Part shown: positions 29,324-31,309 of the stretch, in pieces
Position numbering within the stretch: the first letter of the stretch is position 1
Layout: the number at the start of each line of letters is the position of its first letter
NCBI GenBank assembly: GCA_012522475.1
Contig: JAAYKH010000018.1
Coordinates: 1 to 56,072, forward strand
Source: Chloroflexota bacterium
Lineage (GTDB): Bacteria > Chloroflexota > Anaerolineae > Anaerolineales > Anaerolineaceae
Length of the DNA: 56,072 nucleotides
Reading direction: 5' to 3'
Program-made: the position numbers and the translations under genes
Notes under the pieces: model-generated
Seen by the model: only the letters and a program-made list of their open reading frames with translations
What the model was told of the DNA's origin: nothing
The model's database searches: none

Positions 29324-30034
29324 CTACAACGTCAGGGATGCCGCATTCGGATCAATTTTGAGGCCCGGGCCCATCGATGACGTCACGGTAACGCGGCGGA
29401 TGAAGTTGCCGCTGGCGGCTGCCGGTCGAGCCTGGCGGACAGCCCGCATAAACGCAGCGAGGTTTTCATGCAGTGCCTCTTCAGTGAAAGACAGCTTTCC
29501 AATTGGGACATGGATGTTAGCAGTCCTATCCAGACGGAATTCCACACGCCCGGCTTTGGCTTCTTCAATAGCATTCGCCATGTTATCGCCCTGAACAACG
29601 GTGCCCGCTTTGGGGTTAGGCATCAAACCACGCGGTCCCAAGACACGTCCAAGTTTGCCGACCGTCCCCATCATCTCTGGGGTGGCGATGGCGACATCAA
29701 AATCGGTCCAACCGCCTTGAATTTTAGCGACCATTTCCTCAGAATCAACGACATGGTCAGCACCAGCAGCAAGGGCTGTTTCTGCGTCTTCACCCTGGGC
29801 AAATACCAGCACAACCACTTGCTTACCCAGCCCGTTTGGCAGCACGACGACATCGCGGATTTGCTGATCTGCCTGGCGTGGATCAAGCCCTGTGCGCATA
29901 TGCACTTCAACAGTCTCGTCAAAATTAGCATAACTGACAGATTTTAGTAATTTAAATGCCTCAAGGGGGTCATAGAGTTGTTCTCGATCGATTTGTTTTC
30001 TTGCTTCAAAAAATTTCTTTCCATGCCTTGCCAT
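29324..30034 (-). CDS. rplA: 50S ribosomal protein L1
   Basis: The 236-residue protein forms the L1 stalk and helps release deacylated tRNA from the E site. It has the normal length and conserved segments [53 protein letters not shown] and the C-terminal [14 protein letters not shown] 30034 is preceded by AAAGGAG. L1 is also the classical translational repressor of the rplK-rplA transcript; a candidate target leader lies immediately upstream and is repeated before rplK. Confidence 0.97.
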
Positions 30035-30037
30035 AAT

Positions 30038-30076
30038 TACTCCTTTGTGGTTCAAACGGGTGATTGACCCTCCCAC
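30038..30076 (-). repeat. Duplicated leader element, copy before rplA
   Basis: This 39-nt element shares almost its full sequence with 30517-30554: on the minus strand GTGGGAGGG, a 7-nt variable loop, then CCCGTTTGAACCACAAAGGAGTA including the ribosome-binding site. GTGG/CCAC and GGG/CCC can form a two-tier hairpin with an asymmetric internal loop (GA opposite GTTTGAA). Proposed as an L1-binding operator. Confidence 0.7.
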
Positions 30077-30085
30077 GCATAATTG

Positions 30086-30511
30086 TTAATCCTTTACTTC
30101 AATCCCCATATTTTTGGCTGTGCCTTCGATTTGGCGCATTGCGCCATCAATGTCAACAGCATTCATATCATTGAATTTTTGTTCAGCGATTTCACGCACC
30201 TGAGAACGGGTAACTGATCCAATTTTCTCGCGGTTAGGTTCACCAGAGCCCTTCTCAACCCCGGCAGCTTTACGCAGTAAAATGGCGGTTGGTGAAGATT
30301 TTAATTTAAAGCGAAATGAACCGTCATGGAAAATTGTAATTTCCGCCGGGATGATCTCACCAGCCTGTGAGGCAGTGCGGCCGTTATAGTCCTTACAAAA
30401 GGCCATGATGTTCACGCCGTGTTGCGCCAAAGCCGGGCCAATGGGGGGTGCAGGGTTGGCTTTTCCAGCCTCAATCTGCAGGGTAATAATTGCTTTTACT
30501 TTCTTTGCCAC
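30086..30511 (-). CDS. rplK: 50S ribosomal protein L11
   Basis: The 141-residue protein forms part of the GTPase-associated centre with 23S rRNA. The N-terminal domain has [31 protein letters not shown], and the C-terminal rRNA-binding domain has [23 protein letters not shown]. The start is GTG at 30511, seven bases after AAAGGAG, giving the family N terminus [12 protein letters not shown]. It lies between nusG and rplA in the usual order, with spacers that share a duplicated leader. Confidence 0.97.
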
Positions 30512-30516
30512 GTAAA

Positions 30517-30554
30517 TACTCCTTTGTGGTTCAAACGGGCGATAACCCTCCCAC
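30517..30554 (-). repeat. Duplicated leader element, copy before rplK
   Basis: This is the second copy of the element at 30038-30076, 38 nt long. Only the apical loop differs (6 nt instead of 7); the flanking 23-nt and 9-nt blocks are identical. It ends in the rplK ribosome-binding site. Confidence 0.7.
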
Positions 30555-30574
30555 AACTAACTGAATTAAAACGA

Positions 30575-31309
30575 TTACATTTTTTCGACTTGCAAAAAGT
30601 CTAATTCAACGGGCGTTGAACGCCCGAAGAAATTCACCATAACCCGCACCTTTGAGCGGTCCATATCAATTTCATCGACAACGCCGGGGAAATCGTTGAA
30701 TGGGCCGTCAATAATGCGGACTTTCTCACCAGGTTTGTAGGTAACCTTAATGGTCGGTGCTTCTGCCTCCATGCGCCGCAGGATTTGCGATACCTCTTCG
30801 GGACGCAGGGGGATTGGATCGTTGCCCATGCCTACGAAACCGGTCACACCGGGTGTATTGCGGACAACATACCAGCTTTCTTCGCTCATCAGCATGTTGA
30901 CCAGCACATACCCTGGAAATACGTGCCGTTCGATTGAACGGCGTTTGCCATCGCGAACCTCGATCTCTTCTTGCGTAGGAATAACCACATCAAAGATTTG
31001 TTCTTTCATCTCCATTGATTCAATGCGCTGTTCCAGGTTGTAGCGCACTTTGTTTTCATATCCTGAATAACAGTGAATCACGTACCAGGCGCGGCCATCG
31101 CCAACCTCATCGGCTTTTTCTTCGGCCGACTGGTCGGGCTGTAGATCTTCAACGTCTTTTGCATCCTGATCAATGGTCTCGATTTCTAAGGAATCAGCAG
31201 CTTCGTCCTCAGCCGGCGCGAAAAATTCGCCCGTTTCCTCGACCTCGGAAGCAGTCGTATCTTGTTCCTCTTCAGGAACTTGTTCTTTTGGATCGTCTAT
31301 TGCGGCCAT
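30575..31309 (-). CDS. nusG: Transcription termination/antitermination factor NusG with acidic N-terminal extension
   Basis: The 244-residue protein binds RNA polymerase and modulates pausing, Rho termination and coupling to translation. The NGN domain starts near residue 72 (GRAWYVIHCYSGYENKV) and includes RHVFPGYVLVNM; the KOW domain (KPGEKVRIIDGPFNDFPG) is C-terminal. Both are complete. The first roughly 70 residues are a disordered, very acidic extension rich in Glu and Asp that typical 180-residue NusG proteins lack. ATG 31309 is preceded by AAGGTAATT. It lies between secE and rplK in the conserved order. Confidence 0.95.
   Translation of the reverse strand: MAAIDDPKEQVPEEEQDTTASEVEETGEFFAPAEDEAADSLEIETIDQDAKDVEDLQPDQSAEEKADEVGDGRAWYVIHCYSGYENKVRYNLEQRIESMEMKEQIFDVVIPTQEEIEVRDGKRRSIERHVFPGYVLVNMLMSEESWYVVRNTPGVTGFVGMGNDPIPLRPEEVSQILRRMEAEAPTIKVTYKPGEKVRIIDGPFNDFPGVVDEIDMDRSKVRVMVNFFGRSTPVELDFLQVEKM

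Follow-up and report, generated by a model that had tools for sequence, protein, structure and literature searches.

Paired candidate operators for ribosomal protein L1 before rplK and rplA in a Chloroflexota bacterium

In the relevant passages of PMC10931766, which give Fu 2013 and Mikhaylina 2021 as primary sources, Proteobacteria are said to have the site for ribosomal protein L1 upstream of rplK, Actinobacteria and Cyanobacteria upstream of rplA, and some groups, Firmicutes among them, upstream of both genes, as do T. thermophilus and T. maritima; the sites are described as irregular stem-loops positioned upstream of the gene. The pairing of sites, which a preliminary description of the present locus had set against the single bound leader known from other bacteria, is thus already on record for these last three. 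The sites reported here are like those paired sites in lying before both genes, in forming an irregular stem-loop with an internal bulge, and in their apparent mimicry of 23S rRNA; as far as those passages go, they differ in belonging to Chloroflexota, in both touching the Shine-Dalgarno sequence, and in being nearly identical to each other. Among the matches listed, none of the papers, judged by title and the opening lines of the abstract, deals with the L1 sites of Chloroflexota (which the survey of Fu 2013 may list) or with a rearranged L1 site; PMC7247131 mentions uL1, rplA, L11, or Chloroflexi once only, in a reference. The paired sites are best read as a Chloroflexota case of known paired L1 operators, a sound and mostly ordinary result.

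The window, the whole 56,072-nt stretch of DNA that was analysed, contains the two genes and their leader elements on its minus strand:

30526..30554, minus strand: putative L1 site of the rplK leader, GTGG-GA-GGGT(TATC)GCCC-GTTTGAA-CCAC (from sequence, fold, and covariance model)
30519..30525, minus strand: Shine-Dalgarno sequence AAAGGAG of rplK, directly 3′ of the hairpin (from sequence)
30086..30511, minus strand: rplK (L11), inferred GTG start at 30511; Pfam PF00298 and PF03946 (Ribosomal_L11)
30047..30076, minus strand: putative L1 site of the rplA leader, GTGG-GA-GGGT(CAATC)ACCC-GTTTGAA-CCAC (from sequence, fold, and covariance model)
30040..30046, minus strand: Shine-Dalgarno sequence AAAGGAG of rplA, directly 3′ of the hairpin (from sequence)
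29324..30034, minus strand: rplA (L1, presumably the repressor), with an inferred ATG start at 30034; Pfam PF00687 (Ribosomal_L1), 211.9 bits

Each leader also lies in an open reading frame that continues into its gene from an upstream GTG or TTG (starting at 30076 and 30556). The homologues, which for rplK start MAKK, argue for probable starts at 30034 (rplA) and 30511 (rplK) rather than for the longer open reading frames. The order on the minus strand is tuf, rpmG, a tRNA, secE, nusG, rplK, rplA, an L10 leader, rplJ, and rplL, where tuf, rpmG, secE, nusG, rplJ, and rplL are named from their translations and the gene order. Among the named genomes listed, the best rplK matches suggest an organism of the Anaerolineae type within Chloroflexota. 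The L10 leader (Rfam L10_leader RF00557, 29120-29278, minus strand; 46.7 bits, cut-off 44) lies between rplA and rplJ, and the gene cluster thus has three successive ribosomal-protein leader elements.

The rplK leader (GTGGGAGGGTTATCGCCCGTTTGAACCACAAAGGAGTA, 30554-30517, minus strand) and the rplA leader (GTGGGAGGGTCAATCACCCGTTTGAACCACAAAGGAGTA, 30076-30038, minus strand) lie upstream of their genes and have a 9-nt block and a 23-nt block in common with zero mismatch. Their sole difference is the hairpin loop, which comprises 6 nt in the rplK leader (GTGGGAGGG TTATCG CCCGTTTGAACCACAAAGGAGTA) and 7 nt in the rplA leader (GTGGGAGGG TCAATCA CCCGTTTGAACCACAAAGGAGTA), confirming the shared blocks and variable loop of the preliminary description. 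The two-tier hairpin with an asymmetric internal loop that it had proposed next to the ribosome-binding site is likewise what both leaders fold into: GTGG-GA-GGG…CCC-GNNNNNA-CCAC, ending just 5′ of AAAGGAG. The folding energy is not exceptional (an equal or better fold is reached by 27 of 200 shuffles for one leader and by 76 of 200 for the other), and single-sequence folding was therefore rejected as evidence and conservation was used instead. A pattern search of the 2.26-Mb genome found the motif at these two leaders only, with 0 matches for a reversed control pattern. Rfam at the gathering cut-off gave nothing on the two leader sites; up to E 10 it gave six matches in 29900-30700, all far below gathering scores.

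Two other accounts bear directly on these observations. The shared block adjoins AAAGGAG in both leaders, as it would if it were merely an extended ribosome-binding site, a plain RNA thermometer, or an occlusion hairpin; this account has a negligible probability, given that the Shine-Dalgarno sequence is unpaired in both predicted folds, that it is not part of the conserved strands, which match the L1 region of 23S rRNA, and that the genome holds no further match to the hairpin pattern. The copies in this genome agree at all 32 positions of the two blocks, the 7-nt internal loop included, which could reflect a recent duplication or gene conversion in which one leader was overwritten by the other, with no regulatory significance. 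We consider this very improbable: the flanks of the two copies are dissimilar by eye, and across the genus and this genome the identity of the rplK and rplA internal loops is 5.33/7 within genomes (n = 15) versus 5.15 between genomes (n = 210), values that hardly differ, so that no concerted evolution is seen. Gene conversion was thus tested and rejected. The perfect agreement of the copies in this genome is a constrained motif plus chance, and near-identity, on which the preliminary description had placed weight, is not the general state, the two copies differing in the 14 genus members read.

To place the leaders in a comparative setting, we located rplK in 184 of 199 genomes of the class and in 39 of 41 relatives, comprising 221 distinct genomes, and leaders were read in 138 of the 221, this genome included (30 and 28 from searches, 80 picked from lists). 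Outside the class, 60 loci of the phylum were read, from 196 of 201 phylum genomes with a match: 40 were picked for family diversity, and 20 were chosen in part to raise the share of families that have the odd leader described below. With a named-genome set of 81 loci (the best 80 of a longer list and E. coli K-12), the comparison set totals 279 loci, in groups that are not fully independent, some named-set loci, L156 and L157 among them, probably being the same records as loci in other groups. Sites were accepted by a filter requiring the strands GNGG[GC]AG and ACCN′C, with N:N′ Watson-Crick, and at least three upper pairs; shuffled leaders passed in 5 of 2790 cases on the rplK side and 6 of 2580 on the rplA side. 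The absence counts of the filter are upper bounds, because it misses variants visible by eye (GTGGAAG in L013, L075, and L101; ATGG/CCAT in L129; long insertions in L012 and L052), and E. coli is scored as having neither site because its GGG/CCC lower stem is not accepted. Loci without a located rplA (1 of 24 in other families of the order, 8 of 91 in other orders of the class, 5 of 60 in other classes, 2 of 81 in the named set) were kept and cannot score an rplA site. A covariance-model search of 400 genomes at E 0.001 gave 1 of 400 and missed the window's own two sites (18 candidates scored per genome in the 21 listed); this genome-wide search was uninformative, and leaders were therefore read directly.

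Both sites are present in this genome (1/1) and pass the filter in all 14 genus members read. Of the 8 loci read in the family outside the genus, 7 have both sites and 1 has the rplA site only; of the 24 read in the order outside the family, 18 have both, 3 rplK only, 2 rplA only, and 1 neither. By eye, two of the three rplK-only loci (L012, L052) have an rplA site with a long insert, and the third (L062) has none. In other orders of the class, the counts are both in 8 of 91 loci, rplA only in 61, rplK only in 1, and neither in 21; in other classes of the phylum, both in 0 of 60, rplA only in 18, rplK only in 5, and neither in 37; and in the named set, both in 13 of 81, rplA only in 34, rplK only in 1, and neither in 33. 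The rplK site is not general outside the order, and this includes loci in which a separate ribosome-binding site serves rplK. Under a stricter pattern, 16 genus genomes have two places in 11 cases, one in 4, and none in 1; the genome without the pattern (G202, 69% complete) is also without an rplK match, and the four one-place genomes (G200, G201, G206, G207) have two covariance-model hits each. L1-like sites in L012, L052, L055, L064, and L088 have long insertions, either in the apical loop or in the internal loop on the 3′ side; these loci keep both recognition strands, and the insertion before rplA in L012 is ~100 nt.

The far wider spread of the rplA site in the other orders of the class would be in keeping with activity of the rplA-leader copy only, the rplK copy being weaker, vestigial, or used for mRNA stability or processing. 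This possibility is unlikely: the rplK copy is retained in every genus member read while its loop changes, and the Bacillota loci of Paenibacillus (L186) and Clostridium (L190, L207, L219) carry both sites. Beyond the phylum, filter and reading reveal the rplA site in cyanobacterial loci, both sites in several Bacillota and the rplA site only in others, both sites in one actinomycetote, and neither site in several deltaproteobacterial loci. Our survey matches in outline the taxonomic pattern given in the passages of PMC10931766, with exceptions in Bacillota, an actinomycetote, and deltaproteobacteria.

The pairing register was tested with 143 distinct sites anchored on sequence only (GTGGGA and CCAC). 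With a 7-nt 3′ internal loop, upper-stem positions 1-4 pair in 135, 132, 131, and 119 of the 143 sites; with the other loop lengths tried (3-11), the worst of the four upper positions pairs in at most 57 of the sites. For 83 rplA sites of other species (window excluded), 96.7% of cells pair, slid registers pair at only 38-56%, double-changed cells of the upper stem number 85 versus 23.5 (sd 4.6) in shuffles, and the covariation score is 0.287 versus 0.094 in shuffles, with 0 of 500 shuffles as high for either of the last two measures. Two of five measures are not above shuffles (pairs with a double change, 4 versus 3.7; further pair types, 11 versus 11.8), and the four lower-stem pairs never vary within the 83-site set. 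The second lower-stem pair, left free across 240 sites in the 279 loci, is T-A in 221, G-C in 8, A-T in 4, C-G in 4, and other in 3, and is thus Watson-Crick in 237 of 240 sites across phyla. The four displayed of the 8 G-C sites are cyanobacterial, and the three non-Watson-Crick cells (L048, L134, L222), which were kept in the count, are inner-register matches within proper GTGGGAG sites. GTGGGAG and ACCAC are invariant in the 83-site set and nearly invariant in the class, in part because the anchors select them; unselected neighbours are also fixed or nearly so (G after GTGGGA in 143 of 143 sites, A before CCAC in 142 of 143). The near-invariance of both strands is as expected if a protein recognises them. 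Alignment of the leaders across Chloroflexota, the check that the preliminary description had proposed, thus reveals both conservation and covarying stems.

The covariance model was built from the 83 rplA sites of other species, with the window's own site left out and no rplK sites included. In the 56-kb window it finds exactly the two leaders up to E 10, at 35.3 bits (E 0.00025) and 33.6 bits (E 0.0005). It gives two hits in each of the 14 genus loci, many of whose rplA sites were training sites; both sites in the Paenibacillus and Clostridium loci named above and in actinomycetote L213 (E 0.0047 to 0.18); single sites in L158, L163, L182, and L211; and no hit in L201, L256, L260, and L272 (4 of 27 loci searched), though sites are visible there by eye. 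The genome's own 23S rRNA fragment has GTGGGA and AATACCAC strands, both matching the leaders, with a longer stretch between the strands in the rRNA. The model ranks this L1-binding region of 23S rRNA (L033:305-361), which we take to be H76-H78, first in its locus, weakly (11.7 bits, E 0.3 in 5.6 kb). Its best match in the E. coli locus (L143:1904-1929) is also weak (7.6 bits, E 1.6 in 5.6 kb) and lies 18 nt upstream of the rplK start, before the gene to which PMC10931766 assigns the L1 site of Proteobacteria. The E. coli leader has the GGGAG strand, the upper hairpin, and the ACC strand in common with the leaders here, but differs in that one site was found, before rplK, in that the lower stem is GGG/CCC, and in that rplA follows rplK by 3 nt.

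The two leaders therefore combine features that we take as marks of an L1 operator: a location before rplK and rplA on the same strand; conservation in related species; an irregular stem-loop with an asymmetric internal loop supported by covariation; and likeness, at the low score given above, to the L1 site of the same organism's 23S rRNA. The sequence, the position 5′ of both Shine-Dalgarno sequences, the conservation, the covariation, and the strands in common with the genome's 23S rRNA are direct observations, and together with the form of known sites they support, at the level of sequence, the dual L1 operator reading of the preliminary description. With a probability of about 0.9, rplK and rplA each carry their own translational operator for L1. 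In particular, the hairpin would mimic the L1-binding junction of 23S rRNA, with GTGG/CCAC as the lower stem, GA opposite GNNNNNA, and an upper stem starting from G-C; L1 in excess over free 23S rRNA would bind both hairpins; and, since the 3′ strand of the hairpin ends at the Shine-Dalgarno sequence, bound L1 would repress both genes by sterically blocking 30S binding at both starts. L1 binding, repression, and blocking at the two leaders are what we infer from these features.

The spacing of the genes bears on the presence of two sites. The rplA start lies 51 nt downstream of the rplK stop, and rplA would need its own operator because it presumably starts independently and is not tightly coupled to rplK. 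All 177 loci with an accepted rplA site have >30 nt between rplK and rplA, which is trivial because the site needs room. The 76 loci with neither site and with rplA located have a gap of ≤30 nt in 42 cases and a larger gap in 34, some of the latter holding variants missed by the filter or the odd rplA leader. This pattern fits, but does not prove, that an rplA with an independent start has an L1 site to itself. The lack of a site before rplK in many members of the class is not explained by it.

The odd rplA leader, GCCC-GNNAGTCA-CTGCGG…CCWCNAG-GA-GGGC, is found once per genome in other Chloroflexota (families f82, f100, f98, and f74). The pattern GTCACTGCGGN{3,16}CCWCNAGGAGGGC has a single match in each of 41 genomes among 400 of the phylum (none for the reversed control), by our own count in 26 of 29 genomes of f82, 9 of 11 of f100, 5 of 6 of f74, and 1 of 1 of f98, and it lies before rplA wherever read, including three f74 loci without an rplK match. 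Loci with this leader (GCCCGNNAGTCACTGCGG...CCWCNAGGAGGGC) are L241, L248, L256, L259, L260, L264-L273, and L285-L292. The strand order, GCCC-GNNAGTCA-CT…AG-GA-GGGC, is exchanged relative to the standard site. The odd leader may tentatively be read, at somewhat less than even odds, as an L1 site with its strand order exchanged, in which the Shine-Dalgarno sequence AGGAGGGC would itself be a recognition strand and bound L1 would sit directly on the ribosome-binding site. The lower-stem A-U beside G-C presumably resembles an archaeal L1 mRNA site. Thirteen distinct sequences were aligned and 8 were folded: the outer GCCC/GGGC stem forms in 7 of 8, the proposed inner lower stem in 1 of 8 (L260), and folding z-scores range from -0.89 to 0.03, except for L260 at -2.64. 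The aligned set covaries too little to establish the fold, the outer stem being almost invariant because it contains the Shine-Dalgarno sequence, and Rfam up to E 1 gave no match at the odd leader in seven of these loci. The rplK leader of f100 holds GAGGGAGGG…CCTC in 5 of 5 loci read, in standard order with a GAGG/CCTC lower stem; the filter accepted no rplK site in the 9 f82 loci and 1 f98 locus read. Upstream of rplK in L256, L260, L270, L271, and L272 are standard-order L1-like sites with compensated GAGG/CCTC, some with long loop insertions.

Our results extend paired L1 sites to Chloroflexota on strong comparative grounds, among them the occurrence of all four Watson-Crick pairs at a single position of the lower stem across phyla, and supply a covariance model for an element without an Rfam match in the window. 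The survey suggests that an independently started rplA tends to carry its own L1 site and that the rplK site is optional, in contrast to E. coli, which has tightly spaced genes and one site before rplK. If the exchanged-order reading is true, f100 would have paired operators of opposite topology in the same operons, and the odd leader could show the rewiring of an rRNA mimic with its strands kept.
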